Shown: positions 6,618 to 32,853 of the stretch, one piece after another
How the letters are laid out: each line of letters begins with the position of its first letter
Numbering within the stretch: position 1 is the first letter of the stretch
IMG/VR virus record: IMGVR_UViG_3300044617_001281
Location: 1 to 41,653 of that record
Direction: 5' to 3' (one strand)
Length of the DNA stretch: 41,653 bases
DNA from: a virus
Made by a program: the position numbers and the translations under genes
Notes under the pieces: model-generated
Told to the model about the DNA's origin: nothing
The model's input: only the letters and a program-made list of their open reading frames with translations
The model's database searches: none

Positions 6618-7075
6618 GCGCCTTGCTCGTTCTCCGCAACCCACGATTCGTAATCTTTCCTTTGTGCGATTTCCTCCGAATCAAGCGGGCCGGGAAGTGC
6701 CGTTCCATTTGCGTTGCCTACCTTATTCGCTAGAGGCATGTCGCCGCGATCCAGTGTTGCTATGGTGTTGCCGTGCAGCGCAAATCGCAGCCATTTGTGG
6801 ATCTTCGATTTTTCGCCCATTGACTCTATCGACGCACAAATGCCGCCGACCTTTTTGAGAAGATCATCCGTCCGCATGACAGCCTTAACCAATGTCCCAT
6901 CTGGCATTTGAACCTTGAATACGCTGGCGCCCAATGGGTGCTGGTTGCTTAACTGAATGTTTCTGATCTGTGCGATCTTGGCGTTATTCCAGTCTTCTGG
7001 CGTAACCGTATAAAACGGATCTCCGTTTTTTGTGCGATCTTCTATGAATGTATTTACAGCGCTGTTCATAATCAT
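6614..7075 (-). CDS. Hypothetical protein, 153 aa
   Basis: Start at ATG 7075 (MIMNSAVNTFIEDR), overlapping the RecB-like gene stop as ATGA. The centre appears as a small beta-domain (PLGASVFKVQMPDGTLVKAV) followed by a helix and a charged tail. No family recognised. Position between the RecB-like nuclease and small zinc proteins suggests a DNA-metabolism accessory. Confidence 0.7.
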   Translation of the reverse strand: MIMNSAVNTFIEDRTKNGDPFYTVTPEDWNNAKIAQIRNIQLSNQHPLGASVFKVQMPDGTLVKAVMRTDDLLKKVGGICASIESMGEKSKIHKWLRFALHGNTIATLDRGDMPLANKVGNANGTALPGPLDSEEIAQRKDYESWVAENEQGA

Positions 7076-7902
7076 GCCGCCTCCCTAAGCGTGCTGAACG
7101 CCGGTTGCCTCGGGTCGTAGCCCTTGACGTGGCGCCACAAGATGCAGGCCGCTTTGAATGCTTCCCAATGCGGCACTAGGCTGTCGTGCTTGTAGGGTTC
7201 GACGCGGCCGACTTCGGTGGTGCTGATGTAGACGTTGTAACCGTGAACGGCGTGCAACTGGTCTTCTCCCCACTTGGCCACGGCATAAGCGGCGAGCTGC
7301 ATGCCTTGGGTGTCGTATGGCCCCACCTTCTGCTTGGGCTTGGTCTTGCGGGTCTTGTAGTCGATGACCATGCGGTTGCCGTCCTTGTCGGTGCCGAGGG
7401 CATCGCAGCGGCCGGCGTAGCCGTATTCGTGGTTGACCAGGACAACTTCGATGTCGCTGTAGGTGATCTTGTTCTTCTGCTTCCAGTCCATCACCGGGGC
7501 GACATAGGCCCACATGTCTTCGGGAACAGCGCTCGGGCCTTCCATGAGCAGCTTTTCCAAGGCGTCATGCACCTTGCTGCCGAGATCGGCGGCGGCTGCC
7601 ACCGGGGCCTTGCTGGCGCCGATGACTCGCTCGCAGAAATACTCGATGGTTTCCTCGGGTTTGGGTGGGGTGTTGAAGGCGGCTATCGCAACTTGCGTGG
7701 CCTTCCAGTTGAGGAGGGCGGGCTTGTCGAGGATGCCGGTGTAGCCGGTGACGGACGGCAGAAGCAGGAGCTTCTTGGCGTCGGCCAAGGTGGTGTCTTT
7801 GAGTCCGCTGCCGTCCTTCTTGGGAAGCTGGTGGCAGGGGGTGCCGTCCGGCTTATACCAGTGGCCGCCGTCTGTGAATTTTGATTCGGTGAGAATTGCC
7901 AT
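7072..7902 (-). CDS. RecB-family PD-(D/E)XK exonuclease (276 aa)
   Basis: Start at ATG 7902 (MAILTESKFTDGGHW). It carries the RecB/Cas4-like motif series: LGSKVHDALE (H112), an acidic strand, GYAGRCDALG (D167), VIDYKTRK (D181, K183) and a final QLAAY (Q202, Y206). These residues form the metal site and the QxxxY motif typical of phage and cellular RecB-like nucleases. In a phage replication operon it most likely processes double-strand ends for recombination, close to the SSB-like and helicase genes. Confidence 0.85.
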   Translation of the reverse strand: MAILTESKFTDGGHWYKPDGTPCHQLPKKDGSGLKDTTLADAKKLLLLPSVTGYTGILDKPALLNWKATQVAIAAFNTPPKPEETIEYFCERVIGASKAPVAAAADLGSKVHDALEKLLMEGPSAVPEDMWAYVAPVMDWKQKNKITYSDIEVVLVNHEYGYAGRCDALGTDKDGNRMVIDYKTRKTKPKQKVGPYDTQGMQLAAYAVAKWGEDQLHAVHGYNVYISTTEVGRVEPYKHDSLVPHWEAFKAACILWRHVKGYDPRQPAFSTLREAA

Positions 7903-7957
7903 AACTTTGGTTGGTGATGCGGGGGCCGGTGTTGCGGCCGACCCCCGCTGTTGCCAC

Positions 7958-14789: not shown

Positions 14790-14835
14790 TTTACAGAGTA
14801 AAACGAAAAAGATTGATCCACGTTGATCTTTTTTC
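14790..14835 (+). terminator. Palindrome plus rho-independent terminator
   Basis: TTTAC-AGA-GTAAA(A) at 14790-14803 is a dyad repeated at 18938-18952. Next, AAAAAGAT (14806-14813) pairs with ATCTTTTT (14826-14833) and runs into T residues, as in an intrinsic terminator behind the first plus gene. A TTGACA hexamer (14837-14842) follows directly, so a new transcript may begin here. Confidence 0.5.
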
Positions 14836-16566: not shown

Positions 16567-16781
16567 GCGCAACAACCACTGAAACGGCCGCCGCTGTTCC
16601 GGCCACGCTGGAAAAGCTGGACGCGCTACACTCAAAAAACCGCGTCCGGTTTGAGCATGACGGCCTGCACGGATACCGGCAAAACGGATTCGTCGTCTGG
16701 TATAGGCGGGAAGATGCCGGCGGGTGTTATGTCCGGTGCGGATCAACAAATCACCCAAGGGGGCACGCTGTCAAAATATGA
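16563..16781 (+). CDS. Hypothetical protein, 72 aa
   Basis: ATG at 16563 in an ATGA overlap with the upstream stop. Reads MSATTTETAAAVPATLEKLD, then a beta-rich part (RVRFEHDGLHGYRQNGFVVW). No family recognised; the second half resembles a small beta-hairpin domain. Confidence 0.65.
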   Translation: MSATTTETAAAVPATLEKLDALHSKNRVRFEHDGLHGYRQNGFVVWYRREDAGGCYVRCGSTNHPRGHAVKI

Positions 16782-16933
16782 CCACCGCAACGCCCCGAGA
16801 TTACCACGGAGACCGGCCGCAAGTGTGCTGGCCTATCTACTGGCAGATGATGGCCGCCAAACGCACCGAAACCGGCCGCCATTGGTGGGCAGTGATGGCC
16901 GCGAGGATCAGGCAATGGCTAACGCGCGCATGA
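16778..16933 (+). CDS. Hypothetical protein, 51 aa, with repeat-encoded MMAAKRTET
   Basis: ATG at 16778 in an ATGA overlap. Reads MTTATPRDYHGDRPQVCWPI, then QMMAAKRTETGRHWWAVMAA. The last part is encoded by two copies of the TGATGGCCGC repeat (about 16846 and 16892) read in frame. Function unknown; the frame may exist because the repeat was inserted into it. Confidence 0.55.
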   Translation: MTTATPRDYHGDRPQVCWPIYWQMMAAKRTETGRHWWAVMAARIRQWLTRA

Positions 16934-17052
16934 GTTCCGCATCTGGTCCCGCTAACACCGGGGCCAGCACGGAGAGCATAACGCAATCCCGGCCGATGAT
17001 GGCCGCCAAACACACTGAAACACACATAAGGAGACACAATGAACACAGATAA
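16930..17052 (+). CDS. Hypothetical peptide, 40 aa, with repeat-encoded MMAAKHTET
   Basis: ATG at 16930 in an ATGA overlap; ends inside the next gene at 17052. Its second half, PMMAAKHTETHIRRHNEHR, is the translation of the repeat and of the next gene's ribosome-binding leader. This suggests a leader peptide rather than a functional protein. Confidence 0.4.
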   Translation: MSSASGPANTGASTESITQSRPMMAAKHTETHIRRHNEHR

Positions 17053-17284
17053 ACCTATCAGACTCGGCAAGGTCGTTTTTGACCTTGGCTATGTAATAGA
17101 CCTAGACGACGACGCGATGGAACAACACGCCCGCGACTGCATATTGGAAGATATAGAATATGCAGTGAGGCACGGCGAGCTGTCCGACTACATTCGCCTT
17201 ATCAATGGGTATGACTTGGAGTGTCCCGAGAAAGTTAGCGAGTCGGATATTCCAGAGTTCCTAACAAACCCCATGGGCGAGTGA
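17039..17284 (+). CDS. Acidic phage protein, 81 aa
   Basis: Behind ATAAGGAGACACA. Reads MNTDKPIRLGKVVFDLGYVI, DLDDDAMEQHARDCILEDIE and an acidic end. Similar short acidic proteins with a DLGYV(I/V)DL motif occur in phages; function unknown. Its stop is the TGA of a TGATGGCCGCC repeat. Confidence 0.7.
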   Translation: MNTDKPIRLGKVVFDLGYVIDLDDDAMEQHARDCILEDIEYAVRHGELSDYIRLINGYDLECPEKVSESDIPEFLTNPMGE

Positions 17285-17315
17285 TGGCCGCCAAACACAT
17301 ACAAAGGAGACACAC

Positions 17316-17690
17316 ATGAAAACTGAAAAGCTAGACCTTAACAAAGAGGTCATTATTCAAGTCAAATTAACCTACTCATTCGTTCCGGCCGACCACTTGC
17401 CGGACGATTACGACGGAACGCGGGAAGATGTTGTTAGTTATTTCCGCGAAGACATCGCCCAAAACTTTGACCAATGGGTCAGCGCGAACGAGATATACGA
17501 GCACACGCAAGAGGTAAGCGAGGAGCAGGAGCGTCTTGAGAAAGCCGCGCCGGAAATGCTGAAGGCTCTGAACCGATTGGCTGACGGGTTTTGTGAAAAC
17601 GTGGACGGAGAGGAGCTATACGGCGATTGGATAGCCATTGCGGAGGAAGCAATCGCCAAGGCAACCGGCGAGCCAGTGATGGCCGCTTAA
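17316..17690 (+). CDS. Hypothetical protein with C-terminal APEMLKALNRL module (124 aa)
   Basis: Behind CAAAGGAGACACAC. The N-terminal half is beta-rich (NKEVIIQVKLTYSFVPADHL). The C-terminal half, EKAAPEMLKALNRLADGFCE to EEAIAKATGEP, belongs to a very common phage family with an AP-LL-AL helix and an AI-KA end, and is paralogous to the whole of the next gene. The last residues VMAA come from an in-frame TGATGGCCGC repeat. Confidence 0.7.
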   Translation: MKTEKLDLNKEVIIQVKLTYSFVPADHLPDDYDGTREDVVSYFREDIAQNFDQWVSANEIYEHTQEVSEEQERLEKAAPEMLKALNRLADGFCENVDGEELYGDWIAIAEEAIAKATGEPVMAA

Positions 17691-17718
17691 CCAAAACAAA
17701 CAACAGGAGACACACACA

Positions 17719-17880
17719 ATGAACGCAATCGAAACAGACGTATGCGCAGAAGCTTCGCCCCAAATGCTGGCCGCGCTAAAGCGAGTGAAGCAAAGGCTGG
17801 ACGAGCTAGGAGACTGGCCAGACAGCGAGACAGAGGAGATGGTTAACGAGGCTATATCCAAGGCGTGGCCTTGGGATTGA
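17719..17880 (+). CDS. Stand-alone paralogue of the APEMLKAL module (53 aa)
   Basis: Behind ACAGGAGACACACACA. Reads MNAIETDVCAEASPQMLAAL, KRVKQRLDELGDWPDSETEE, and ends EAISKAWPWD. It aligns with the C-terminal half of the preceding gene (APEMLKALNRL against SPQMLAALKRV), so the two arose by duplication or were acquired as related modules. Function unknown. Confidence 0.7.
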   Translation: MNAIETDVCAEASPQMLAALKRVKQRLDELGDWPDSETEEMVNEAISKAWPWD

Positions 17881-17978
17881 CGCCCGACACCGGCCTTTGT
17901 CCAATGGGGGCAGAGGCCGGCACGGACGGCAAACATGCTGACCCGGTGATGGCCGCACCATCGAAACAAAGGAGACAC

Positions 17979-18320
17979 ATGAAAAAGACAGCAAAACCTA
18001 AAGCCAAAACCGTTGAGGTTCCGGTCAAAGTGGCCGAAGCGATCCTCGACGACATCGAAAACATACTCAACCAGCACACCGGCAAGCCTTATGGGGCGCG
18101 CGGGTTCACGTTGGCGAGCATTAGCAAACTGGCCGATTGCTTGGGGTGGGAAACACCATCCCGCGAAATGAACCGGCTCATTGCAAAGGACCGCAAGAAA
18201 ATCCGCGAGGCATACGCCGGGAGCGGAATGACCGACGCCCAAGCTGCCTGTGATATTGTGCAATATCTCTGGCAGGAACAGCAAAAGGGCAAGGGCAAGA
18301 CCAAGAAGGGGGGCAAGTGA
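17979..18320 (+). CDS. Basic hypothetical protein, 113 aa
   Basis: ATG at 17979 behind AACAAAGGAGACAC; an upstream in-frame ATG at 17948 is part of the repeat. Lysine-rich ends (MKKTAKPKAKTVEVPVKVAE and KGKGKTKKGGK) frame a helical core (AILDDIENILNQHTG ... REMNRLIAKDRKKIREAY). Probably binds nucleic acid. No family recognised. The stop TGA is again that of a repeat. Confidence 0.65.
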   Translation: MKKTAKPKAKTVEVPVKVAEAILDDIENILNQHTGKPYGARGFTLASISKLADCLGWETPSREMNRLIAKDRKKIREAYAGSGMTDAQAACDIVQYLWQEQQKGKGKTKKGGK

Positions 18321-18661
18321 TGGCCGCCACGACCATGAAAACGAAGCCAACAAAGAAGCGCGCGACAACGGCGGCCCGCCCTACTCGCGCTGCTTGCGAC
18401 CCCATGGAGACCGGGGAGGTTGAGTTCCTTGTGTATTACCGGCACGACGAAAGCGACCAGTGGGAGTGCGATGACGCATTCCCCACGCTTGAAGCGGCAG
18501 AGGCATACTGCCGAGAGAAGGCAGAAACCTACAGCGATGACGTTCTAAGTGGAGAAGATGCACCGACCCCTTGGTCTTTTTACATCTTTGAGGTTAAGGG
18601 CGTCCGCTCGTTTCGTTATAGCTACAACGTGGAAATAACGGTTAAAGAGGAAATACTGTAA
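18320..18661 (+). CDS. Hypothetical protein, 113 aa, starting in the repeat
   Basis: The ATG of TGATGGCCGCC overlaps the upstream stop and opens MAATTMKTKPTKKRATTAAR. A basic, disordered N-terminus precedes an alpha/beta domain (EVEFLVYYRHDESDQWECDD ... EAYCREKAETYSDDVLS ... SFYIFEVKGVRSFRYSYNVE). An alternative start at ATG 18335 is possible. No family recognised. Confidence 0.65.
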   Translation: MAATTMKTKPTKKRATTAARPTRAACDPMETGEVEFLVYYRHDESDQWECDDAFPTLEAAEAYCREKAETYSDDVLSGEDAPTPWSFYIFEVKGVRSFRYSYNVEITVKEEIL

Positions 18662-18676
18662 GCACACGCCGCTCAC

Positions 18677-18704
18677 AAGGGAGGGGCAAATCGCCCTCTC
18701 CCTT
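18677..18704 (+). terminator. GC-rich hairpin without T-run
   Basis: AAGGGAGGGGC and GCCCTCTCCCTT pair almost perfectly around AAATC, giving a strong stem at 18677-18704. No T-run follows, so it could attenuate or stabilise transcripts instead of ending them. It separates the main accessory genes from two very short ORFs. Confidence 0.5.
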
Positions 18705-18717
18705 CAGCCGGCAAGTG

Positions 18718-18870
18718 ATGGCCGCCGAGACCATGGAAACCAAGCAAGACCTAGTGCGACTGATGGAAGGGGCGATAGCCAAAGCCAAGGGGCGCAAGCT
18801 GAGACGAGCAACGGCACGCCCCGCAACCAAGACGCGGATGAAATGCCGCAACGCCCAAGGCGTCCGGTGA
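18718..18870 (+). CDS. Small basic protein starting in the repeat (50 aa)
   Basis: Opens with the repeat's ATGGCCGCC (MAAETMETKQDLVRLMEGAI), then turns strongly basic (AKAKGRKLRRATARPATKTR). Its own stop TGA is the TGA of the next repeat copy. Unrecognised; coding status rests on the coupled start and a composition suited to nucleic-acid binding. Confidence 0.45.
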   Translation: MAAETMETKQDLVRLMEGAIAKAKGRKLRRATARPATKTRMKCRNAQGVR

Positions 18871-18950
18871 TGGCCGCCATGCCCACCGAAAGCACACACC
18901 TTGACACCATCCGTGTGACAACAGCACACAAGCGCACTTTTACAGAGTAA
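18870..18950 (+). CDS. Very short ORF in the attP region (26 aa)
   Basis: Starts at the ATG of a TGATGGCCGCC copy with overlap to the preceding stop and reads MAAMPTESTHLDTIRVTTAH, ending inside the TTTACAGAGTAAAAC palindrome. It runs over a putative integrase arm site, so it may be incidental. Confidence 0.25.
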   Translation: MAAMPTESTHLDTIRVTTAHKRTFTE

Positions 18951-18953
18951 AAC
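18938..18953. promoter_or_regulatory. Palindrome TTTTAC-AGA-GTAAAA, second copy
   Basis: The 15-mer TTTACAGAGTAAAAC is identical to the one at 14790-14804. The two copies bracket the accessory operon. A regulator binding both ends or a conserved operator is possible. Confidence 0.5.
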
Positions 18954-18957
18954 AAAA

Positions 18958-19018
18958 GGCCCGAACAATCCGTTGAGCGATTATGAGCCGCCTGCTCTGA
19001 CCGTTGAGCTACACCCCC
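18958..19018 (-). tRNA. 5' part of a tRNA-Met (CAT) gene, 3' end missing
   Basis: On the minus strand from 19018: acceptor GGGGGTG, TA, D-arm GCTC-AACGGTCA-GAGC, and an anticodon arm GGCGG-CTCATAA-TCGCT with anticodon CAT (18985-18983). The T-arm is degenerate (GATTGTTCGGGC) and no CACCCCC follows to close the acceptor stem, so it cannot fold into a full tRNA. It is best read as the part of the host gene carried by attP. Confidence 0.65.
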
Positions 19019-19097
19019 GAAGTAACTTGTTCTCTGTAACTTGATCCCCTGCAATCCAGTTTGACCCACTTTCCGCCATGGTGGTGCTAATCACAAG

Positions 19098-19126
19098 TTG
19101 ACACCATTTTGACACCACCCCATATT
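19098..19126 (+). promoter_or_regulatory. Possible integrase promoter overlapping arm sites
   Basis: TTGACA (19098-19103), a 17-base spacer and CATATT (19121-19126). The predicted start (about 19133) is only two bases before the integrase ATG at 19135, so the transcript would be nearly leaderless. The -35 overlaps the tandem arm sites, which would let integrase repress its own gene. Confidence 0.4.
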
Positions 19127-19134
19127 GAGGCGTT

Positions 19135-20286
19135 ATGAATACCGAATCCTTCCGCGTTGAAGTCCCGAAGTTTGGCATGAGAGGCACCTGCTTTTGGCGC
19201 CGAGACCATTGGTGGCTGCGCTTCACGGCAGACAAGAAGATCAAGCGGGTGTCCCTCAAGACGACCGATGCCAAGATTGCCAAAGCTAAAGCCATATCGT
19301 TCCTCACTATTCTCGGGGAGCAGGGCATGGCCAAGCTCAAAGCTACGGCCGCCATGCGCGACACGGCCCCGACCATTGGCCAGATCATCGAGCACTACGA
19401 GAAGGTCACGGACTGCGCGACCCACAAGAAGAACTCCAATGCCCTCCTGCGCGTCATCGCTCGGGCCAAAGGCTGGGTGACGGAGGGCGAGCGCACCATG
19501 TCCGCCGCCGAGAAGGCCAAGGTGATGGCCGTTCGCGCCACCGAACTGACCGCCCAGCTCGCCGTGGACTACCAGCGGGCCGACAAGAACGCCACCTACA
19601 CAAAAGGCACCACCCTGGCCGGGGCCAAAGCCGTCTTCGCCCGCACCAAGGATTGGGTCGGCTTTGCCCTGCCCGACATCTCCGGGTTCCTTAATGCCTC
19701 CAAAGAGGCCAAGCAGAAATACAACCCCAACAGCTTTAAGCACATCCCCAAGGACGCGCTCGCCACCATGGAGAGGGAGAGTCGCGCCGACGATGCCCGC
19801 CGCCGCGCCTTCATCTGCTGCCGCTACCTTGGCATGACGCCGAAGGAAGTCAGCTTCGCCCGCAGGGGTTGGATCGAAGATCGCCCGCAGGGCAAGGCTA
19901 TGTGCGTGCGAGAGCGTCCCGATGAGGGTTTCTCCCTAAAGACCGGCGGGGCGCGGGAGCGTGATATTGTCATCGCACCATGGATGGCCGATGCCCTGCT
20001 CAAAGCCGACGACTACTTGATTCCCTTGCCCACGCCGAACCTCCGCTACCAATACATCCTGCGCGTGTTCAATCTTTGGCTGCGCACCCTGATCCCCGAC
20101 CGCAAGGGGGCGGCCTACGAATTGCGCAAGCAGGCCGGCAGCGATTGGCTGGAGGCCACCGGCCAGATCAGCCAAGTGCAACATCTTCTCGGGCACAGCA
20201 CCCCGACCACAACCGCCCGCTGGTATGCGACATGGCAGAAAGCCGTGGTCATGCCGGCGGCATTCCAAGAGGAGCCGACAATATGA
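19135..20286 (+). CDS. int: Tyrosine recombinase integrase (383 aa)
   Basis: Site-specific integration and excision. The N-terminal half contains an SAM-like core-binding domain; the C-terminal catalytic domain holds YELR (R331), QHLLGH (H350 and H354) and WYATW with the nucleophile Y364. Two positions depart from the usual set: the first box, normally G-L-R-x-x-E, reads GMTPKEV (233-239) with T where Arg is expected, and the box-II His appears as Tyr (AYELR). ATG 19135 has TGAGG just upstream. It lies beside the attP-like region, which supports the assignment. Confidence 0.9.
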   Translation: MNTESFRVEVPKFGMRGTCFWRRDHWWLRFTADKKIKRVSLKTTDAKIAKAKAISFLTILGEQGMAKLKATAAMRDTAPTIGQIIEHYEKVTDCATHKKNSNALLRVIARAKGWVTEGERTMSAAEKAKVMAVRATELTAQLAVDYQRADKNATYTKGTTLAGAKAVFARTKDWVGFALPDISGFLNASKEAKQKYNPNSFKHIPKDALATMERESRADDARRRAFICCRYLGMTPKEVSFARRGWIEDRPQGKAMCVRERPDEGFSLKTGGARERDIVIAPWMADALLKADDYLIPLPTPNLRYQYILRVFNLWLRTLIPDRKGAAYELRKQAGSDWLEATGQISQVQHLLGHSTPTTTARWYATWQKAVVMPAAFQEEPTI

Positions 20287-20645
20287 AAGCAATGATACTA
20301 TCAATCGCCGTGGTGATGGCCGTTACGGGCTGCGAAACGGACAATACTGCCTATGAGACGGTCCGCGCCCGCAACCTTGAGAAATACAAGAAACCATTCA
20401 AGCCAGTGTTTCAACCAGGCACCGACATGATGGGCATTGTTCCATCGACTGTCGTGTTTCAAGACGCGCCGGCACCAGCCCAACAGCAGGCGCCGCAACC
20501 CATCATCGTTGCGGGGCCGGGATCACCGCCAATCACTACGGCCAGCCAAGTCGGGGGAACCACCGTTATTTCAACCATCGGCAGCCGCGCACCGATTGGG
20601 GCGCCTGTTTACAACCGGCCGGCCTACGGCTACTATGGCTACTGA
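20283..20645 (+). CDS. Proline-rich lipoprotein behind integrase (120 aa)
   Basis: N-terminus MKAMILSIAVVMAVTGC has a lipobox VTGC, so it should be an acylated envelope protein. The mature part is proline-, glutamine- and alanine-rich (FQDAPAPAQQQAPQPIIVAG) and ends PAYGYYGY. ATG overlaps the integrase stop by ATGA. A lipoprotein expressed with the integrase in the prophage could serve lysogenic conversion or superinfection exclusion; this is inferred from position, not homology. Confidence 0.7.
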   Translation: MKAMILSIAVVMAVTGCETDNTAYETVRARNLEKYKKPFKPVFQPGTDMMGIVPSTVVFQDAPAPAQQQAPQPIIVAGPGSPPITTASQVGGTTVISTIGSRAPIGAPVYNRPAYGYYGY

Positions 20646-23700: not shown

Positions 23701-25534
23701 GGCGACCGGCCAGCTCTACAGCGATAGAGATTTCCACCGGCGTCATGGCGCGGCGGTCATCGGTCAAAGCAATTTCCGCCATGAGTTGTCGGGCGGCATC
23801 CAGCCCGTAGTCATTGATCCACGCCTTGGCAGCTTCGATGGAATCCTTGAACCGCTGCACATCATAGACGCTACCAAGAAGGCTTTGCGTCTGCTCGGGG
23901 ACGTTGGGCATCTCGCTCGCCCGCTCCTCAAATTGACGGGGGCGTTGTTCGGGGTTCGTGCTCGCCGGGGCAGGGGATGGCGGTGGAGGGACAGCGCCTT
24001 GCGCGGCTGGCGCTGCGGGGGCGGGCTGCGGCACTGCTGGCGCGGGGGCAACCCCACCGGCAGCGGCATTCGCTGCAATGTTTTGCTGCGTGGCCCGAGC
24101 CATGTTCGGTGCGCGGCCCATCGGTCGGGCAGGAATAGAAATTGTTTGTCCGCCCAGCTCTACATTGACATCGCCGGCCCGAAGCTGCTCTTGGGGTATC
24201 ACAGCGGCATTGCCCAGCGGCAACTCGCGGGCGCGCTCAAGCCTGGCCCCCACAGCAATATCAACGCCGCCCATCACAGAGTCAGCCGCCGTTTCCGCTA
24301 GGATGCTTCGACCGCTGGTGATCTGTCCGTCTTGCGCTATCTGTTTGCTGGCCTCTCCCGCTCCACCCATGAACGACTGAACCGCCGTCTCAATAGCGCC
24401 AGCAGCAAGGCGTCCGGCAATCTTCGTGCCCTGCCGACCAACAAGTTTTCCGGCTATCAATGCGCTGGCCACATCAAAGGTAGCGACAGGCACGGCCCCC
24501 TTCTCGGCAAACTCCCGAGCCAATGCCATGCGCTCTGGGTCTTGTAGTCCTTCGGTCAGCGCCTGCGGGTCAGTGATGTCAATGCCTGCCCGCTGGAATG
24601 AGTCCAAGATGCCGCTGCTCATCTCCATCGAATGGCTGGCCAGTCCCACGGCGTTGGCATATCCGGCCCTTGCCCCGAGCAATGCACCCTTTGACCCTCC
24701 AAGAAACGCCCCGGCGCCCGTCCAGAGAACCATTGGCGCCACACCCTTGTTCGCCATTTGGCGGGCGAAGCCGGCCATGGACTCGCCGATCAGCTCGCCA
24801 AAGACTCCGACCGGATTGCTGCTAAATGCCTGCCAGCTTTCCATTGGTGGGCGGTTGTCGTCCATTGTAACGGAGTAAGCCTGCGATGGTGGCAACTTCT
24901 GGATCTCTTGCTGATAAGCGATGACTGCCTCGGGGTTGGGCTGACCGGCATCCATCTCCACAGCCATGCCGGCGCTGGCCCATCCGCGCTGAAAGGCGTT
25001 CCATGTGCTGGCAATGTTGTTGCCGCGAATGAGATTGAGCGCAGGGATGCCGTCAGGGGACTCGCCTTCGGCGGGAGCGAGAAGGAATGAGTCCGCGCTC
25101 ATCTGTTGCGGAGAAAATGTCGGATCAGCGCCGACAACGCCGCTTCCACCGCCACCGCCAGCACCAAAAGGCGGATCGTAATTCCCCGATAGGAAATCGT
25201 CTGCTGAAGCCGGAGGCTCGTTGCCGGGCAGCGGCTGTTGCGGGGCGTTTAGAAAATCATCGGCCGCCATCGAATCAGTGGCGGCGTCTTGCTCATCGGT
25301 CCATTCCGGTAACTCTTCCGGTGGCGCATTCCCAGCGACCGGGTCGGTGGCCTGCGCGCTGCGAACCGGGGGCAGTGTCTCGCTCTCCGGTCCAATGTCC
25401 AGCCCTTGATCGGGAACGCTATCTTCCCATTGGCTGTTTTGCGACTCCCGAAGAATACGCTGCTGCTCCCGCTCGTAGGCGGCGGCGTCTTGGTCAGATA
25501 AACCAAGAAAACGATCTGCCTCTGAGACAGCCAT
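20726..25534 (-). CDS. Large internal virion (DNA ejection) protein (1602 aa)
   Basis: Starts MAVSEADRFLGLSDQDAAAY. A long disordered N-terminus with many D, E, P and G leads into helical regions. Glycine/alanine-rich hydrophobic stretches (about residues 265-300 and about 930-980, including GSIVPIIGTTAGAAIGAGAG) could insert in a membrane, as expected of internal proteins that form an ejection channel. Size, end-of-operon position behind two smaller internal proteins, and these segments suggest the counterpart of T7 gp16 in short-tailed phages. No catalytic motif was found. Confidence 0.7.
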   Translation of the reverse strand: MAVSEADRFLGLSDQDAAAYEREQQRILRESQNSQWEDSVPDQGLDIGPESETLPPVRSAQATDPVAGNAPPEELPEWTDEQDAATDSMAADDFLNAPQQPLPGNEPPASADDFLSGNYDPPFGAGGGGGSGVVGADPTFSPQQMSADSFLLAPAEGESPDGIPALNLIRGNNIASTWNAFQRGWASAGMAVEMDAGQPNPEAVIAYQQEIQKLPPSQAYSVTMDDNRPPMESWQAFSSNPVGVFGELIGESMAGFARQMANKGVAPMVLWTGAGAFLGGSKGALLGARAGYANAVGLASHSMEMSSGILDSFQRAGIDITDPQALTEGLQDPERMALAREFAEKGAVPVATFDVASALIAGKLVGRQGTKIAGRLAAGAIETAVQSFMGGAGEASKQIAQDGQITSGRSILAETAADSVMGGVDIAVGARLERARELPLGNAAVIPQEQLRAGDVNVELGGQTISIPARPMGRAPNMARATQQNIAANAAAGGVAPAPAVPQPAPAAPAAQGAVPPPPSPAPASTNPEQRPRQFEERASEMPNVPEQTQSLLGSVYDVQRFKDSIEAAKAWINDYGLDAARQLMAEIALTDDRRAMTPVEISIAVELAGRLGAMQDYNGQATVLKTVSRKGQTMGAAIAHLKIIGMMTPEGIVMYANRMIEDYISTLPPERQEALRKAQSVVDQIGATVAQAKTDIANSVLKEGQFNGERIGLRISRRAGSVAQGEQVMVSIREVLTGPSVKQAAKPQIAKILQDAGLSKGEAESIASSVTNQFYKALDQVRAQLIAPRKPATGEALKIFNQLQADLKAGNLTDSQYMSKVASIFGVPAMTPELAAELNRYREQIQATTDEDVKTVLTAKMYERAMSIVPQDIWAQTRAVAYLSMLFAPKTWIRNIGGNVIQFVANIGRDAFINTIADPTLGLFDGGRRTTASGIGLMGAAGRTAAGAATGAAIGSIVPIIGTTAGAAIGAGAGLIYTASGGKRISAMLTPAKDFMKGWKWAAKQNTSNTPSERKSELMAGLSHLRVMSKLTTQNKWEFGDVKDVNRQLFSGRAMQMLESTLSVALGTADRAFWMAEYRSRLSQMEAAAKKNGEWTGQPTPEMVEAAQADAMYSIYQNPNFTSKLIADLRRTLNRNKEFGLGTAIVPFAQVPGSIVEKGFVDWSPLGFIRNIYSGTKGILYANGMAQTGRFDRAAFNKAFAQATMGTGMWMTGLYLYKMGVITASREEDEKLEQMRQASGLGAYQINLTQLRRRMLTGDWSNPYPAIYGDTLMDYNWAQPMSIVLAAGAEYGKQEDTAQREATKGNRPGERAGWLALSMLAGAKSLKEEPLLQGFASFNREWSNSGEPISAIYDTALGIPSMFVPQLVRQASQYGVGIPGTDIRLLEGDNIVREYRNATGPALTADMKRMFMNIGSQLPGVSTSFPPRYDILGQAVERYGYGGNSFFNVFINPARFTKYKGDPAFQELERIMSVTGETKMLPTKIKSNKVAINGQQIELTNEQMAAYRYYLGNMTMGIYYNRLALPQYASVPDQTKVDLFVKDVKDVNAAVKAGLFGHSVGNLTPAQRSLYGQFIMGIGQQMPTGMQPRSFLPAPVPQPQN

Positions 25535-26172
25535 TACTTCATGCCCCAGTGCAGAAGAGCACGTTTGGCTTCGTCTTGATTGATTTGGTTTTTCATAAAC
25601 GCCTCACGCACTTGATACGGGCTGGCAAACGTCATGGCGGCACCGGCGCTATTGGTCATGGAAAGCGGTGGCGGCGCGTCTGGCGCTGCGGCGGGCGCGG
25701 GGGCAACCGCTTGACCCTGCTGTGCTGCTGCGGCGGCGCGGGCGGCATCGTTGTTTGCTCCAACGGTGAGCTGCTGTCCCATGCCCCATCCGCCACCAGA
25801 GGCAACGTAGCCTTTGGGCTGTTGTCCCGTGTCCCTATTTGTTACGGCGCGGGTTGTTCCCGGCCCAACCAGTTCTTCAAACCCTCCAGTCGTTTGAATT
25901 ATTTGAGCTTCGTAGGGCTTGAATGTCCCGTCTGGGTATTCGATGGTCCGCAACACGTCGCTCGTCACTTCGTTGGTGCGCGTCCCAAGTTTTTCGGCGC
26001 CTTCTTTGGGGGCAAACTGGCGCATCATAAGCTCTTTGGTGACGGGCTTGAGGATAGAAACTGCCAGTTCGATCTCCCAGTCTTCGGGCTGATAGCCAAC
26101 CCGCTTGCCTTGGTTGCGGAAATACGAATCAAGATCCGGCAGCGCCGGCCTGTTTGTGTTTGTCTCGGCCAT
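25534..26172 (-). CDS. Virion-associated protein (212 aa), probably internal
   Basis: Reads MAETNTNRPALPDLDSYFRN, a helical region, then a glycine-rich part (YVASGGGWGMGQQLTVGANN) and an alanine/proline-rich linker. TAATG overlap with the 1602-residue gene. Composition and place suggest an ejection or core protein; no family recognised. Confidence 0.55.
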   Translation of the reverse strand: MAETNTNRPALPDLDSYFRNQGKRVGYQPEDWEIELAVSILKPVTKELMMRQFAPKEGAEKLGTRTNEVTSDVLRTIEYPDGTFKPYEAQIIQTTGGFEELVGPGTTRAVTNRDTGQQPKGYVASGGGWGMGQQLTVGANNDAARAAAAAQQGQAVAPAPAAAPDAPPPLSMTNSAGAAMTFASPYQVREAFMKNQINQDEAKRALLHWGMK

Positions 26173-26176
26173 ATTA

Positions 26177-26629
26177 TTAATTCCCTCCGACCGTGTAATT
26201 GTATTTGTTCCGAGGGGCTACGGCCTGCGCCGGCATCGCCATCTGCCAGTTGCCGCCATCATCAAAGAACCCACTGCGGCCAGCCAGCATCGACTTCCTG
26301 CCAAAGTCCAGCTCGGCAAGGTAGGGCGCGATGTAAGCGTTGGCCGAGGCGAAGTCTTTCTTTTGGGCAAAGCCTTGAAGCGTTGCGTCAATCTCTGGCG
26401 AAAGCATGTTCTTGCTGGAAAGAAAATTATACATCCCCTCAAAGTTGCGCTTCTGAGTTTTGTTATCCTTGGAAGACTGTCCGTAGATCCCGCCGATGGC
26501 GGAAAGCGCCCCGCCAATATCTTGGCCAAGCTGGTTATACATCTGGGCCTGCGTGTCAGCGGCGCGCATCTGGCCCGCCCCGAGGATTTCTCCCGAGCGG
26601 TCGGTTACTTGTGGATTGTAAGCAAACAT
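26177..26629 (-). CDS. Small internal virion protein (150 aa)
   Basis: ATG at 26629 behind AAAAGGAGAACAAAACT. Reads MFAYNPQVTDRSGEILGAGQ; a long helix (QAQMYNQLGQDIGGALSAIG) follows, then a Gly/Pro/Asn-rich tail. Typical size and composition of one of three internal proteins in podoviruses. Function inferred. Confidence 0.55.
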   Translation of the reverse strand: MFAYNPQVTDRSGEILGAGQMRAADTQAQMYNQLGQDIGGALSAIGGIYGQSSKDNKTQKRNFEGMYNFLSSKNMLSPEIDATLQGFAQKKDFASANAYIAPYLAELDFGRKSMLAGRSGFFDDGGNWQMAMPAQAVAPRNKYNYTVGGN

Positions 26630-26648
26630 AGTTTTGTTCTCCTTTTTG

Positions 26649-27527
26649 TTAAGCCGCCACGCGGCCGTCTGTGATTCTGGCGATGGGGCGTCCGGCCACA
26701 TCCTCTGACTTGTGCGCGAAGCCCTGCTCGGGAATCGCATGATCTTCGTAGGGCAGGTAGGCCGACACATTGTTGACCTCCGCGTTGACCTTCGGGCACC
26801 ACACCGTAGCGTGGCCGCGCCGGCTCATGCATGCCGTGCAAACGTGCAGGTAGTCGGCGTTGCGGGAGCGGTCGGCCAGATGGTGCCAGCGCCCCATGCT
26901 ATCCTTACCGTAGCGGGTATCGTCATTCGGCACGCCGGCGGCTTCGAGGTAGGACCAGACATCGTTGTCGGTCCAATCGCGCAAGAGGAAAAGCTGGTCC
27001 GGTCCATCCGGTATCCGGCGCACATCCATGGCCAGCGGCACTTGGCCCTTGATCGGGTCCACGTCCGCCGACTTTTGGCCGTGGAAGCAGGCGTCCCACG
27101 GCCAGTCGAAGGTGCCGAGCGGACGCTGCAACGCATCCATCCCGCACCGCCAGGGCTGGCCGAAAACCGGCTCCTGTGTGCCGACCGCCACCATGCACGC
27201 CGTCTGCCGACCCCACTGCATGTATTTGAGAAAGTCAATCTGGTGGGAGCCATCCGGCGCCGTGCCATCGGTCAGCGTCACGCGCCCCGGCGCCCAGTCG
27301 TAGACATCCAAGTCCCACTCGCGGATCAGCCGGTCACTCAACTCATAGCGGTCCCGCATCCACGGCTCCCGCCACTGGACGCAGGGCAGCTTCACGCCGA
27401 CCTCATGCAGCAGCAGGTGCAAGAGCGCCGTTGAGTCCTTGCCGCCCGACCACAGCACCACTGGGTTGCGGTAATGCTGCAACCAGTCTTCGGCCTTGCG
27501 GCAAGTGTCTGTGATGAAGTTCGGCAT
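26649..27527 (-). CDS. cysH: Phosphoadenosine-phosphosulfate-reductase-like enzyme (292 aa)
   Basis: PP-loop ATPase-type motif WSGGKDSTALLHLL (SGGKDS at residues 27-32) with downstream cysteines CTACMSRRGHATVWC, as in the PAPS/APS reductase family. It would act on sulfate activation or in a sulfur- or nucleotide-modifying reaction. It is translated inside the virion-protein operon (shares a stop/start junction at 27527), so it is made late. A host-metabolism gene and a DNA- or RNA-modifying enzyme are both possible; homology alone cannot decide. Confidence 0.8.
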   Translation of the reverse strand: MPNFITDTCRKAEDWLQHYRNPVVLWSGGKDSTALLHLLLHEVGVKLPCVQWREPWMRDRYELSDRLIREWDLDVYDWAPGRVTLTDGTAPDGSHQIDFLKYMQWGRQTACMVAVGTQEPVFGQPWRCGMDALQRPLGTFDWPWDACFHGQKSADVDPIKGQVPLAMDVRRIPDGPDQLFLLRDWTDNDVWSYLEAAGVPNDDTRYGKDSMGRWHHLADRSRNADYLHVCTACMSRRGHATVWCPKVNAEVNNVSAYLPYEDHAIPEQGFAHKSEDVAGRPIARITDGRVAA

Positions 27528-28399
27528 TAGATCGCAAGGCCCGCACCCATGAGGAGGCCGCCGCCGATGCCGCCAGCCATACCCATCATGCCAGACTGCC
27601 CGGAGGCTGAAGCGTTCATGCTCGCCGCATTCATCGCCGCCCAGTTGTTAAGCTGACTATTCGCCCGAGTGTCGAGCATGTTGGCATTGAAGCTGGCCAC
27701 ATTACCGGCCATCTGCTGCGCACCGCCGAAGGTCTGCCCGATGCCGCTCTGCAAGTTGTTGCCAAGGTTGCCGCCGATCTGCGCACTGCCGAGGGCGCGA
27801 CTGTAGGGATCAACCATAAGCTGCCCCTGAGCCGCACTGCCCAGCATCCCGCCAGCCTGCCCAGCGCGGCCAAAGACGTTGCCCGTCACCATCTGGTTGG
27901 TTGCCGAGGCGAAGTTCCGCCGGCTGGCCTCGCGCGCTTGCGCGGCGGCGTCACGGTTGAGGATCTCAGCGGCGCTGCTGCCCATCGAGGTGCCGAGGCC
28001 GCGAGCGGCAAAGGCGGCGCGGGCCGACTGCTGGGCGTCACGGGTCTCTTCGGCGGACAGCGAACGGCCGAGGCCAAGCTCAGTCTCGGCCTGCTGCTGG
28101 AGCATGCGCTCAATGTTTGTCGGCCCCACTTGGTCGGCCAGCATGTTGCCCAGTCCCGAAACACGGTTGATGTCCCCTCGGGCGGCCTGCGTGTATTCGT
28201 TATTGAGGTTGCCAGCGATCTTCTGGATCGTCCCGAGCTGCAATGCCTCAAGCTGCGGATACGCCTCAATCTGCGCCTGCACCTGAGCGCGGGCTGACGC
28301 CGCCGCCTGCTCGTTGGCCGAGCGCATAAGCGCGTTGAAGTCCAGGGGTGCCGCGTGCTGCACCGAGGGTTTCTTAGATTTTTTGCTGCTGCCGCCCAT
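27527..28399 (-). CDS. Glycine/alanine-rich internal virion protein (290 aa)
   Basis: Starts MGGSSKKSKKPSVQHAAPLD. A helical part (NALMRSANEQAAASARAQVQ) is followed by glycine- and methionine-rich repeats to an end (GMAGGIGGGLLMGAGLAI) that could be membrane-active. Similar proteins in podoviruses are ejected with the genome. No enzymatic motif. Confidence 0.6.
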   Translation of the reverse strand: MGGSSKKSKKPSVQHAAPLDFNALMRSANEQAAASARAQVQAQIEAYPQLEALQLGTIQKIAGNLNNEYTQAARGDINRVSGLGNMLADQVGPTNIERMLQQQAETELGLGRSLSAEETRDAQQSARAAFAARGLGTSMGSSAAEILNRDAAAQAREASRRNFASATNQMVTGNVFGRAGQAGGMLGSAAQGQLMVDPYSRALGSAQIGGNLGNNLQSGIGQTFGGAQQMAGNVASFNANMLDTRANSQLNNWAAMNAASMNASASGQSGMMGMAGGIGGGLLMGAGLAI

Positions 28400-28401
28400 A
28401 A

Positions 28402-28755
28402 TTATAGCCTCACTTTCTTACTAAGTTTCGCCCAGTCATGGGCCTTGATTTCAAAACTGTTATGCCGGCACCAAAGCGCGTATTGCTGCGGCCGACTCGC
28501 CACACGCATAAACTCCCGCACCGGATTGCCGTGCCCGGCGCTGGCAGCCAGCTCCACGAACCAAGCATTCGGCTCGCCGTCATCGGTGAAGTCCTCCGCT
28601 TCTGCGTCCCAGCATACCTGACGCGCCAAGAGAAAGACCTCCGGCGTCGAGTAGACCAGCCCGCGCGTGAGATGCCAGCCGAGGGTTTCCTCGAAGGTCT
28701 CGTCCGTGACGTTGGCGTCGTGCCATTGCTTTGCGCGTTGCCATGGGGTCATCAT
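28402..28755 (-). CDS. Hypothetical protein, 117 aa, between fibre and internal proteins
   Basis: Start MMTPWQRAKQWHDANVTDET, coupled to the upstream stop by overlapping ATG/TGA at 28752-28755. Contains helices (YSTPEVFLLARQVCWDAEAE, WFVELAASAGHGNPVREF) and a conserved-looking end. No family recognised; context suggests a virion or assembly protein. Confidence 0.55.
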   Translation of the reverse strand: MMTPWQRAKQWHDANVTDETFEETLGWHLTRGLVYSTPEVFLLARQVCWDAEAEDFTDDGEPNAWFVELAASAGHGNPVREFMRVASRPQQYALWCRHNSFEIKAHDWAKLSKKVRL

Positions 28756-29435
28756 CCCTCATACATAATGTTGACCGATCCGGCGTCGAAGGTGTCAGTG
28801 CCGTTTGCGGTGGTAAGACGAAGACGGTCTAAAACGCCAGCAAGCGTGACCGACCCTCCCGTTGTGTAAATTGACGCAGCCTCGTCGTAAAAAACGCCAG
28901 ACGCCACCCATGCGTTACTCCCAAAGCTGGTAATCACGACATGTCCGTGGAAAGCCGACGCAGCATTCCCCCCCATTAATGTCAGGCCCGATGTCAGAGA
29001 ATTATACGAAACGCCGCCAGCACCAGCATTGAACGCGCCGGCCGAGAGATAGCCGCTTGTTGTAAATGTGCTCGACCCAAGCTGAATAATCGGCTGCGAT
29101 GTTGCGCTTGTGCTTACGCCCTTGAGCATCACCGTAATCCGCTTCACCCAAGACGGAATGCCGGTGAAGTCGATGCTGGTTCCGCTGGTGGTGTTTTGCG
29201 CGGTGGCGAGCGTGAGCGGTTGTGAGAGCTTGGCCGGAGTTACGGCAGCATCAGCAATCCGCGCAATCGGCAGCGTGCCAGTGGTGAGCTTGCTGGCGTC
29301 GATGCCGCTGGCGAGCTTGATGTTGGTAATCTCAGCGTCATCCACCACCACGGTCGGCGCCGCCGCCGAGTTGAGTTTCGCCGGTGTCACGGTCTCGCCG
29401 CTCACCCAGTTGTATCCTGCCGTTACTGTTGCCAT
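28752..29435 (-). CDS. Fibre-like protein B (227 aa)
   Basis: ATG at 29435 behind AACGAAGGAGAACGACT. The N-terminus (ATVTAGYNWVSGETVTPAKL) is a repeat-type region with AKLNSAAAP. The middle (IPSWVKRITVMLKGVSTSAT) and the end (GTDTFDAGSVNIMYEG) are shared with the fibre-like gene at 31468-32268. The DNA stays nearly identical at both conserved ends. Trimeric fibre or receptor-binding protein by composition (Thr, Ser, Gly, Ala); no enzymatic motif. Confidence 0.65.
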   Translation of the reverse strand: MATVTAGYNWVSGETVTPAKLNSAAAPTVVVDDAEITNIKLASGIDASKLTTGTLPIARIADAAVTPAKLSQPLTLATAQNTTSGTSIDFTGIPSWVKRITVMLKGVSTSATSQPIIQLGSSTFTTSGYLSAGAFNAGAGGVSYNSLTSGLTLMGGNAASAFHGHVVITSFGSNAWVASGVFYDEAASIYTTGGSVTLAGVLDRLRLTTANGTDTFDAGSVNIMYEG

Positions 29436-29453
29436 AGTCGTTCTCCTTCGTTG

Positions 29454-31460
29454 TTAAGCTGCATTCCTTGTCTCAGTCGGCGGCCTCGATGGGCCGGCGG
29501 CCTCGATGCTGACGTTGCGGATTTCGGGCCGGTTGGCCGTGGTTTCAAATTGTAGTTCGCAGTAGTGCGCCTTTTGGCGGATCGGCTGCTTGAGCGTGTA
29601 GTCTTCGCTCAGTCCCGAGGTGTTGGTCTGTCCTGGCACCAAGGTGATCTCGCTGTCGGGGTTAACGGTGATCGCTTTGACCGTCACGCTTGCCGTATCC
29701 GGCAGCACCACATCGGCGAGGCTGCGGACGAAGCGCTTGGTGCTCATGCTGCCCAATCCGTAGCGGCGGGTGCGGATCTTGCCGGAGACCGGCGTGATGA
29801 CATTGGCCTGCGCGTCCGGCGATTCGTCTCCTGCTTCGATCTCGTCGAGGAGCATGAGCTTGCCGGCCTTGTTGCTGACGAAGAGGCGGCGCTCGTTGGC
29901 GCGGGTGGCGACGACGAAGTCATCCACGCCGAAAGCGTAGATGTCGCGGGTTTCCCACTGGTCGTTCAGCGCATTGTAAAGGAAGACACCGTTGTTGTTG
30001 TCCGATCCGGCGAGCGGGACGGCGAGGTAGTAGCGGTTGGAATACCACAGACCGACCGCGTTCTTGACCAAGCTGTCGTTGAGTTCAGTGAGTTGGTTGG
30101 CGATTGGGTCGCTGAGAGGTTTTGTGTCTCCGCGAAGTTTAAGGTCGAGGCGGCTGTCGAGGCGGTAGACACCGGCGTCGGACAGGAAATAAACAAACTG
30201 GCCCGCCGTGGCGATGGACCGGCGGGCCGCGCAGCCGACCTCATCGGTGAGGAGCGTGAGCTTACTGAGCGCCGTGTCGATGGCCGTGCTGGCGCCGTCC
30301 ACACTGGCAAACTGGTTGACCTCCGCGAGCCAGATGGACTTGCGGCAGAAGACGAGGAAGCTGTTTTCCACCCACGGATGCACGGCAACGACAAAGTCAT
30401 TGCTACCCGCGCCGGCGCGGAAGGACTGCCAGTAGGGATCGTAGGTGTTGGCGTCCAAGATATCGCTGATGAGCACGTTGTTCTTGCCGTCAGGCAGGAC
30501 GAGGCGGTTGTTGACGTAGGTGCCCCAAGGCGTTGACCTCATGGTCTTGTAGGTCGCTGAGAGTCCGGTCGGCACGCCTGCGGGGCTGCGGACGAAGGCG
30601 GTGGCAACGCCGTCCCAGTAGAGCGGCGCCTTCACGCGGCGGATGGTTCGGCCACTGGTCGTGGCGTCGGTCGCGGTGCCGGACGGCACGGTGATGGTAA
30701 AGCTGTTGGTGGAGGACGTGGCGATGTCGTATTCCACGCCGTCGAAGGCCGCGACATTGCTCCCTTCGATGCGCACGCGGGCGCCGGCGGGGAATCCGTG
30801 GCCGGTTAGGTTGACGGTCGCCGTGGTGGACGCCACCGTGATGCCGCCGGTGGTCACGTTCTTGACCACCCAGCCAGGGCGCGAGGCGTCGGCTTCGCGG
30901 AAGAGGTAGAGGCGGTCGTTGGCCTGCACCATGGAGACGGTGTCGGTCGGCTCGATGACCTCGTCCGGTGATGTCGGGTAGCCCAGCTCCTGCGGGAGCA
31001 CGCTGATGACGATGGTGTCGCCGTTCTCGTCTACGATCTCCTCTCCGGTGTCAGTGACCAGAAAGCCGCCCGCCCAGACACCGGCAAAGGATTGGTTGTC
31101 GTCCAAGAGGATGGTGTAAGCGCGGTCGCCGCCCGCCAGCACTACGATCTCCGCGCTCTGCACCTGATCGGGTGAGCGGTAGACGGAGGCCGCAAAGATG
31201 CCGCCCGCGTAGGTGCTCTGCACGATCGGCGCATTCGGCGCAGGGTTCAGCACAAAGGGCACCGTGAGCGGCGAGCTGGCCACGCTGATGGCGTCCGCCA
31301 TGCGCTTGGCGCCCTTGCGCGTCACGGCCACGCCACGATCAAGCCGCATATTCTCCGAGAGCTGCAGCATGCCAGCAGGCAGCGCAACCGGATTGATCCG
31401 GCTGGCATAACCAGCGAATCCGGCGTCACCGTCGCGGAGGATGGGGCTTTCTAGGGGCAT
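29454..31460 (-). CDS. Tail nozzle / tail tubular protein B-like (668 aa)
   Basis: Beta-rich protein of 668 aa. The N-terminus (MPLESPILRDGDAGFAGYAS, RINPVALPAGMLQLSENMRL) and repeated strands with DRLYLF, NRLVLPDGKN, NSFLVFCRKSIWLAEV and RRYGLGSMSTKRFVRS resemble the nozzle proteins of short-tailed phages that form the tail tip and hold the DNA. It is flanked by the two fibre genes. Family call based on pattern and length. Confidence 0.7.
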   Translation of the reverse strand: MPLESPILRDGDAGFAGYASRINPVALPAGMLQLSENMRLDRGVAVTRKGAKRMADAISVASSPLTVPFVLNPAPNAPIVQSTYAGGIFAASVYRSPDQVQSAEIVVLAGGDRAYTILLDDNQSFAGVWAGGFLVTDTGEEIVDENGDTIVISVLPQELGYPTSPDEVIEPTDTVSMVQANDRLYLFREADASRPGWVVKNVTTGGITVASTTATVNLTGHGFPAGARVRIEGSNVAAFDGVEYDIATSSTNSFTITVPSGTATDATTSGRTIRRVKAPLYWDGVATAFVRSPAGVPTGLSATYKTMRSTPWGTYVNNRLVLPDGKNNVLISDILDANTYDPYWQSFRAGAGSNDFVVAVHPWVENSFLVFCRKSIWLAEVNQFASVDGASTAIDTALSKLTLLTDEVGCAARRSIATAGQFVYFLSDAGVYRLDSRLDLKLRGDTKPLSDPIANQLTELNDSLVKNAVGLWYSNRYYLAVPLAGSDNNNGVFLYNALNDQWETRDIYAFGVDDFVVATRANERRLFVSNKAGKLMLLDEIEAGDESPDAQANVITPVSGKIRTRRYGLGSMSTKRFVRSLADVVLPDTASVTVKAITVNPDSEITLVPGQTNTSGLSEDYTLKQPIRQKAHYCELQFETTANRPEIRNVSIEAAGPSRPPTETRNAA

Positions 31461-31467
31461 TTAGATG

Positions 31468-32268
31468 TTATCCCTCATACATGATGTTGACCGATCCGGC
31501 GTCGAAGGTGTCGGTGCCGTTGACGGTGGTTATGCGGACACGGTCGAGAGTTGCTGAAAGCGTTTTGGTGCCTTGCGTAAGACCAGCGTGGCCCGCGCTT
31601 TCGTTGACAATGCTTCCAATGCCAACCCAAGTATTCCCAACAAGATTAGACAGTATTAACGCGCCGTCTCTTGTATATGCTGCCGAATTGCCGCTAATTA
31701 CAAACCCACCATTGACTACGGCGACACTTACGGCATTAGTGCCCGTAATTGTAGAATTGCCCACAACGTATCCGGTGTTTTCAACCCCTCCAGAGTCTCC
31801 TAATTGGACTTGCACAGGGCTTGCCCCGCTGGTGCTTACACCGCTAAACATCACCGTAATCCGCTTCACCCAAGACGGGATGCTTTCAAAATCCAAAACC
31901 GTATTTGATGAAGACCCGTTCCAGTTGAAGGCTTTTGCGGTTGCCAGCGTGAGCGGCTGAGTCAGCATCGTCGGCGTCACCTTGGCGCTGCCAATCGCCG
32001 TCACACCGGCATTGCTGATCGTCACGTCGCCAGTCACAGCAACCTTGGTCGCCACGTTGCTGCCGTTGCCGACAAGGATGTTGGCGCTGTCCAGTGCGGC
32101 GAGCTTGCTGAAGGCGATGGCCGCCGCCGCATCAATGTCCGAATTGATCAGTCCGCCGCGCACAACGGATGCAGCGACACGCTTGGTCAGTCCGCTCTGC
32201 TCGATGACGAACTCGTCGCCGGGGTCGAGGGTGGTGGCTTGGGTTAGTTGTCCGATTGTTTTGGCCAT
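31468..32268 (-). CDS. Fibre-like protein A (266 aa)
   Basis: Starts MAKTIGQLTQATTLDPGDEF, a common opening in phage tail-fibre proteins (a small beta-domain, then VAASVVRGGL). Repetitive Thr/Ser/Gly/Asn/Ala-rich body. It shares the segment SWVKRITVM and the terminal TFDAGSVNIMYEG with protein B. The conserved ends and divergent centre suggest swapped receptor-binding parts. Confidence 0.65.
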   Translation of the reverse strand: MAKTIGQLTQATTLDPGDEFVIEQSGLTKRVAASVVRGGLINSDIDAAAAIAFSKLAALDSANILVGNGSNVATKVAVTGDVTISNAGVTAIGSAKVTPTMLTQPLTLATAKAFNWNGSSSNTVLDFESIPSWVKRITVMFSGVSTSGASPVQVQLGDSGGVENTGYVVGNSTITGTNAVSVAVVNGGFVISGNSAAYTRDGALILSNLVGNTWVGIGSIVNESAGHAGLTQGTKTLSATLDRVRITTVNGTDTFDAGSVNIMYEG

Positions 32269-32274
32269 AGTGTT

Positions 32275-32832: not shown

Positions 32833-32853
32833 TTGCTTGGGTTATCGACGATG

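Follow-up and report, generated by a model that had tools for sequence, protein, structure and literature searches.

A repeated element at small-gene joints beside attP, and its association with cassette exchange in a phage lineage

The window analysed here is the entire IMG/VR record IMGVR_UViG_3300044617_001281, 41,653 bases in length. Its minus strand carries terminase, DnaB-like helicase and O-like replication genes. On the plus strand, an operon of small genes has attP at its end, with a tyrosine-recombinase integrase gene and a lipoprotein-like gene, and it is in this operon that a short motif is repeated. The features of the array are listed below, in window coordinates.

16847..16858, plus strand: motif copy 1 (ATGATGGCCGCC), in frame within the small ORF 16778-16933
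16892..16902, plus strand: motif copy 2 (GTGATGGCCGC), in frame within the same small ORF 16778-16933
16932..16994, plus strand: hairpin element of type A, ending 2 nt before motif copy 3
16996..17007, plus strand: motif copy 3 (ATGATGGCCGCC)
17028..17041, plus strand: AAGGAGACACA leader and ATG of gene 17039-17284
17039..17284, plus strand: cassette gene, 81 aa, no family; its stop is the TGA of motif copy 4
17281..17292, plus strand: motif copy 4 (GTGATGGCCGCC), then AAACACATACAAAGGAGACACACATG
17316..17690, plus strand: cassette gene, 124 aa, PHROG 1273 (unknown function), running through motif copy 5 as VMAA-stop
17676..17686, plus strand: motif copy 5 (GTGATGGCCGC, then T)
17719..17880, plus strand: cassette gene, 53 aa, no Pfam family; its TGA opens the type B hairpin
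17879..17945, plus strand: hairpin element of type B, without U run
17946..17956, plus strand: motif copy 6 (GTGATGGCCGC, then A)
17979..18320, plus strand: cassette gene with SD-ATG start; its stop is the TGA of motif copy 7
18317..18328, plus strand: motif copy 7 (GTGATGGCCGCC), with TGA/ATG overlap
18320..18661, plus strand: cassette gene of family F10 (MAATTMKT..), starting at the motif ATG
18667..18714, plus strand: hairpin element of type C, without U run (shuffle z -5.6)
18715..18726, plus strand: motif copy 8 (GTGATGGCCGCC)
18718..18870, plus strand: cassette gene of family F11 (MAAETMET..), starting at the motif ATG; its stop is the TGA of copy 9
18867..18878, plus strand: motif copy 9 (GTGATGGCCGCC), the final copy before attP, here and in related phages
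18895..19122, plus strand: attP region, as judged from relatives: a tRNA fragment surrounded by TTGACACC sites, which are putative arm sites for Int
19135..20286, plus strand: tyrosine-recombinase integrase
7072..7923, minus strand: PD-(D/E)XK exonuclease, a candidate for a recombination function

The attP region, made of repeated TTGACACC sites and the tRNA fragment, is situated past the last motif copy and before the integrase, which belongs to PHROG 1 (phage integrase). The tRNA fragment (window 18967-19030) is variable: an anticodon CAT region is found in the group of the window, and tRNA-Arg(TCT) at attP in other relatives (attP regions compared: L025, L026, L127 and L131). This difference suggests that, in close relatives, a change of integration site accompanied a change of integrase type. 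In one relative, the provirus IMGVR_UViG_2737471655_000001 (24000-33786), a host flank is present beside the integrase, with tRNA-Arg(TCT); antiporter-like and MFS-like genes were read in this flank by eye, and provide a lead to the host. An imperfect palindrome, TTTACAGAGTAAAAC, is found at either end of the accessory region (window 14790-14808 and 18939-18957) and recurs near attP in most relatives; it may be an operator or a recombinase site. Finally, among the structural genes, ORF 26649-27527 on the minus strand gave by eye a PAPS-reductase-type reading (..LWSGGKDSTALLHLL..).

Six exact copies of TGATGGCCGCC were found in the window, all on the plus strand (16848, 16997, 17282, 18318, 18716 and 18868), for an expected number of 0.09 and a maximum of 2 in dinucleotide shuffles. 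When the 11th base was left free (TGATGGCCGC), nine plus-strand copies were counted between 16848 and 18878, the three additional ones being 16893 (..GCG), 17677 (..GCT) and 17947 (..GCA). GTGATGGCCGC, present 7 times, is the commonest 11-mer of the plus strand of the window. The original prediction had announced nine copies of TGATGGCCGCC in fixed orientation and far beyond chance: the number nine holds for TGATGGCCGC, but the full 11-mer occurs only six times, and both the orientation and the excess were confirmed. A scan of the whole window detected zero copies of the full motif outside the array, which on the window side speaks against a common codon string. The array is therefore real, and far beyond what chance produces. 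The AAACACA stretch and AAGGAGACACA leader said to follow some copies are clear at 17282, but only partial at 16997 and 17947. Shorter variants had also been reported in the integrase and lipoprotein genes. Both exist (19523 and 20314, respectively), as the codon string GTG ATG GCC GTT within coding sequence, but the one in the integrase corresponds to a KVMAV protein segment, invariant in 12 integrases, and is not a joint. The lipoprotein variant lies inside the signal peptide. This part of the lipoprotein-like gene (window 20283-20645, after the integrase) is kept and reads GTGATGGCCGC in most relatives, and the region past the lipobox Cys is strongly divergent between phages.

Contigs of this lineage of uncultured, temperate phages were gathered through integrase relatives (60-93% identity) and through motif searches. 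In 17 related IMG/VR contigs, 3 to 9 copies of the element were found, upstream of the integrase and all on the same strand, these counts being obtained with a pattern that tolerates one variant base, and a few arrays being cut by contig ends. All TGATGGCCGC copies lie on a single strand and are clustered in each relative and, where the integrase is present, a motif copy is the last such feature before attP. Sister phages, with a portal 75-78% and an integrase about 40% identical, contain neither the motif nor a comparable joint repeat, and those 11-mers that occur at least 4 times in them are of low complexity or scattered. When 2.9 million viral contigs were scanned twice with degenerate patterns based on the motif and downstream positions, matches were obtained in this lineage only. 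Because of these two results, we consider the element a lineage-specific trait. A search of 50,697 phage records returned neither similar DNA nor an integrase relative, and portal relatives among them were only about 22-26% identical. No host genome was found through the integrase or the portal among 84,980 species genomes.

The layout of the joint is as follows: a hairpin in some cases, then GTGATGGCCGC, a weakly conserved stretch of about 13 nt, often AAGGAGACACA, and an ATG. Positional conservation was computed over flanks unrelated to one another (34 on the left, 48 on the right), in which the 11-mer itself is fixed by the search. Weaker conservation past the motif extended to +24; at non-selected positions, an A was present at +18 (92%), AA at +22/+23 (96 and 98%), and CC at +16/+17 (69 and 67%). 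The AAGGAGACACA-ATG gene start, often present, is placed some 33-44 nt 3′ of the motif.

Three types of hairpins (A, B and C) precede some of the motif copies. In type A, the stem sequence varies between phages and pairing is kept, all 98 cells being paired and three pairs being changed on both sides, in a compensatory manner. The covariation score was reached by 0 of 500 shuffles, and slid controls scored far lower. Seven distinct, related sequences entered this analysis, and the structure was derived from one of them, so that the covariation would be support for a conserved pairing rather than its proof. Compared to shuffles, folding gave z -4.4 for type B, z -5.6 for type C and only -1.7 for type A taken alone. 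At the three hairpins, no plus-strand site resembling an intrinsic terminator (GC-rich stem and U run) was detected; the joints showed no sigma-70-like promoter, and no Rfam family reached a meaningful score in the array region.

We then compared gene content between copies. The 18 arrays, once cut at the motif, yielded segments that fell into 27 shared families and many singletons, in varied orders and neighbourhoods. Family F4, for instance, was found in five phages next to five different left neighbours, and was followed by F10, F7 or unique cassettes, and F7 was preceded by four different neighbours. As a pattern, the cassette-joint homology originally proposed for the shuffling of small genes is thus borne out: arrays of 3-9 copies differ in gene content exactly at the copies, and a gene order maintained in the absence of the motif was not what related phages showed.

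Homology breaks, anticipated at the copies, were indeed located there. Unique 3′ homology ends fell at +10 to +60 of the motif start in 78% of cases, compared to 20% (maximum 34% of 1000) under a circular-shift null, this shifted-motif null testing position only. Homology started on the 5′ side at -85..-50, which corresponds to the hairpin, in 59% of cases (null 14%), and at the motif in 23% (null 8%). Break mapping was filtered for real loss of homology. In an unfiltered test on HSP ends, with windows of 10-30 nt, enrichment was weak except for 3′ ends in the widest window, because many ends are indels within homologous sequence. Ungapped-block ends were set aside as a measure of breaks for this same reason.

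Pairs of copies with a homologous left flank lost homology on the right within 80 nt in 83% of cases, against 10% for anchors placed inside genes (the phages being related, these counts are not independent). SD-ATG joints without the motif lost homology too, in 63% of cases on the right, to be compared with the above 83% at motif joints, and in 50% on the left. Moreover, an F4-type cassette gene was found behind an SD-only joint in L125. Since joints devoid of the motif also exchange, the motif is not required, and at most adds to exchange. The core was intact (0-1 mismatch) in 95% of left-anchored pairs with an unrelated right flank; core conservation in right-anchored pairs was unusable as a measure, due to indels. 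For replacements with flanks at least 95% identical, 15 of 17 left breaks lay at +11..+48 of the motif in both genomes, several pairs possibly sharing one event. Judging from this comparison of related phages, cassettes have evidently been exchanged at the joints.

A natural experiment was provided by two contigs from different metagenomes, L017 (IMGVR_UViG_3300002835_000561) and L027 (IMGVR_UViG_3300044729_002263). On the left side, all 6,850 compared bases are identical, through GTGATGGCCGC, after which unrelated cassettes are found, of 787 nt in L017 and 149 nt in L027. Homology resumes within the hairpin of type C, some 76 nt ahead of the motif copy that follows, with one mismatch from the hairpin to the integrase and none in the next 6.2 kb. 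More than 13 kb are therefore near-identical, apart from the cassette swap. All contigs are metagenome assemblies, in which hairpin repeats could cause chimeras: a misassembly due to the 11 bp repeat is unlikely on the left side, and on the right side the hairpin repeat of some 40-50 bp could be the source of one.

We favour, with moderate confidence, the explanation that the repeats are a conserved gene-joint element beside attP, which would offer short shared homology for cassette exchange together with expression signals. Joints between small genes that are unrelated to one another share this element, which is found at nearly every joint of the operon. By supplying short homology, it would allow cassettes to be gained, lost and replaced through recombination of a general homologous or annealing type, of either phage or host origin. 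A cassette that both ends and starts in the element would remain expressible thanks to the stop, start and/or ribosome-binding signals present there. We infer from genome comparisons that the motif drives cassette exchange, and that exchange proceeds through joint homology. Selection against in-gene breaks contributes under any model, and alone would also place breaks at joints. Concerning the recombination functions, the phage encodes the PD-(D/E)XK exonuclease listed above; the proteins scanned yielded only this exonuclease, and none that could be recognised as an annealing protein. For the 161-aa neighbour of the exonuclease, the NCBIfam match is not an annealing protein but a replication-initiation family, with a score slightly under the curated cut-off; its predicted structure has a pLDDT of 42. 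A broader proposal, which we put forward tentatively, is that a standardised cassette joint may have evolved, making small accessory genes interchangeable parts beside attP, with an integron-like function obtained without an integron recombinase.

Alternatively, the element could serve above all as an expression signal (by termination-reinitiation coupling, as RBS context, or through hairpin-protected or processed mRNA joints) selected for each gene, mosaicism at the joints being then the usual outcome of illegitimate recombination and selection, with the motif carried along. This deserves serious consideration, although we find it rather unlikely given the coding contexts of the motif. These were counted from mechanical ORF calls, and the numbers are approximate. 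For the 34 distinct left contexts, a gene ended at the motif TGA in 15, as had been predicted from the TGA stop overlapping an ATG (in the window, the motif TGA closes genes 17039-17284, 17979-18320 and 18718-18870). In 5, the motif was read through as VMAA with a stop directly after, like in the gene upstream of the copy at 17677, which ends ..EPVMAA-stop; in 7 it lay in frame inside an ORF, and in the last 7 no clear upstream gene was present. On the right side (48 distinct contexts), 20 led to an SD-ATG gene and 13 to a gene whose start is the ATG of the motif (without upstream SD in 9 cases), and neither configuration was found in 15. The motif has no single coding role: depending on the joint, it serves as stop or as start, is read in frame as VMAA, or does none of these. 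It is therefore the nucleic acid that is conserved, and not a peptide, which argues against a codon string as well as against translational coupling as the whole explanation.

The TGATG overlap at these 15 gene ends, the 9 starts lacking an SD, the exchange observed at SD-only joints and the compensatory changes in the type A hairpin are all in keeping with an expression signal. It accounts poorly, however, for the copies without possible coupling role (the 7 in-ORF copies, the 5 VMAA-stop copies and the 15 of 48 lacking a gene start), to which the last copy before attP is to be added. Moreover, what coupling requires is TGATG and not GGCCGC, and the core persists while right flanks change. 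The translational coupling suggested in the original prediction fits part of the copies (15/34 left, 13/48 right) but not the rest, and therefore cannot explain why the latter are conserved. Some of the copies probably do have a role in expression, which is compatible with the homology role that we favour.

The motif could also be a DNA or RNA binding site for a phage or host factor, such as an antitermination, nucleoid or RNA-binding protein. Such a site would agree with the orientation fixed along the transcript, with the constant core and with the structured hairpins before some copies; but no candidate factor emerged, Rfam returned no meaningful match for the array region, and binding alone predicts no homology breaks at the copies, which makes this interpretation improbable.

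Integron gene cassettes are small genes arranged head to tail, with hairpin joints, beside a tyrosine recombinase. The present array, in one orientation with hairpins at its joints and a tyrosine recombinase nearby, is similar to them, but in layout only. Site-specific cassette recombination of this kind, by the adjacent tyrosine recombinase or by another one, appears highly improbable here: attC-type R boxes (GTTRRRY) were not seen by eye at the joints, and breaks were spread over +11..+48 and hairpins instead of falling at one point. Unlike the integron IntI, the recombinase matches PHROG 1 phage integrases and comes with an attP of its own in a tRNA, and it scored far below the cut-off of the NCBIfam archaeal XerA/integron model. 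As for chance or a favoured codon string (MAA/VMAA), which does describe the integrase and lipoprotein variants, its probability is negligible, and it is refuted as an account of the array by the copy number (6 against 0.09 expected), by the single strand and clustering in each relative, by the use of several frames and by the absence of such a repeat from sister phages.

Returning to the conserved gene-joint element used as homology for exchange, similar arrangements have been described in phages. The mobile regulatory cassettes of T4-type phages are reportedly repeated regulatory elements linked to modular shuffling; at the present joints, no sigma-70-like promoter was detected. A long-standing question is by which means phage genes are exchanged with such precision at gene borders: through homology there, or through blind recombination followed by selection. 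Boundary sequences, short conserved sequences at the borders of phage modules, were proposed as sites of homologous recombination (cited in PMC3029335), but could not be found at most mosaic borders, according to that article. Like them, the sequence reported here is short and common to the borders of exchanged modules; unlike the mosaic borders described in PMC3029335, one element is found at nearly all joints of an operon. It fits the idea of boundary sequences in an unusually complete form. With one element at nearly every joint, breaks on it, and an L017/L027 swap that has one border in an 11-bp identity, the question of homology versus selection can be put to the test through changes of 6-11 bp. 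By means of the element, the variable accessory genes next to attP can moreover be catalogued in this lineage.

The nearest described system is that of the SAS/ESAS (Start-Associated Sequences) of Cluster K mycobacteriophages, in which a 13 bp repeat, GGGATAGGAGCCC, coincides with the RBS and precedes the start codon by 3-7 bp (PMC3203893). About half of these repeats are preceded by an inverted repeat, and the stop codon of the upstream gene may lie within; a role as recombination target was raised as a possibility, the function being unknown there (PMC3203893). The element analysed here resembles them in place and pattern, but is not a member of the family. Both are short and lineage-specific, and occur in one orientation at joints of non-structural genes of different families, with an inverted repeat upstream of a subset, which here corresponds to hairpin types A-C, of other sequence and size (PMC3203893). 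The repeat itself differs (GTGATGGCCGC instead of GGGATAGGAGCCC), as does its distance to the start codon, located 33-44 nt downstream or supplied by the motif ATG itself, instead of 3-7 bp away. A last difference with SAS/ESAS is that, for the present element, homology breaks at the copies have been measured.
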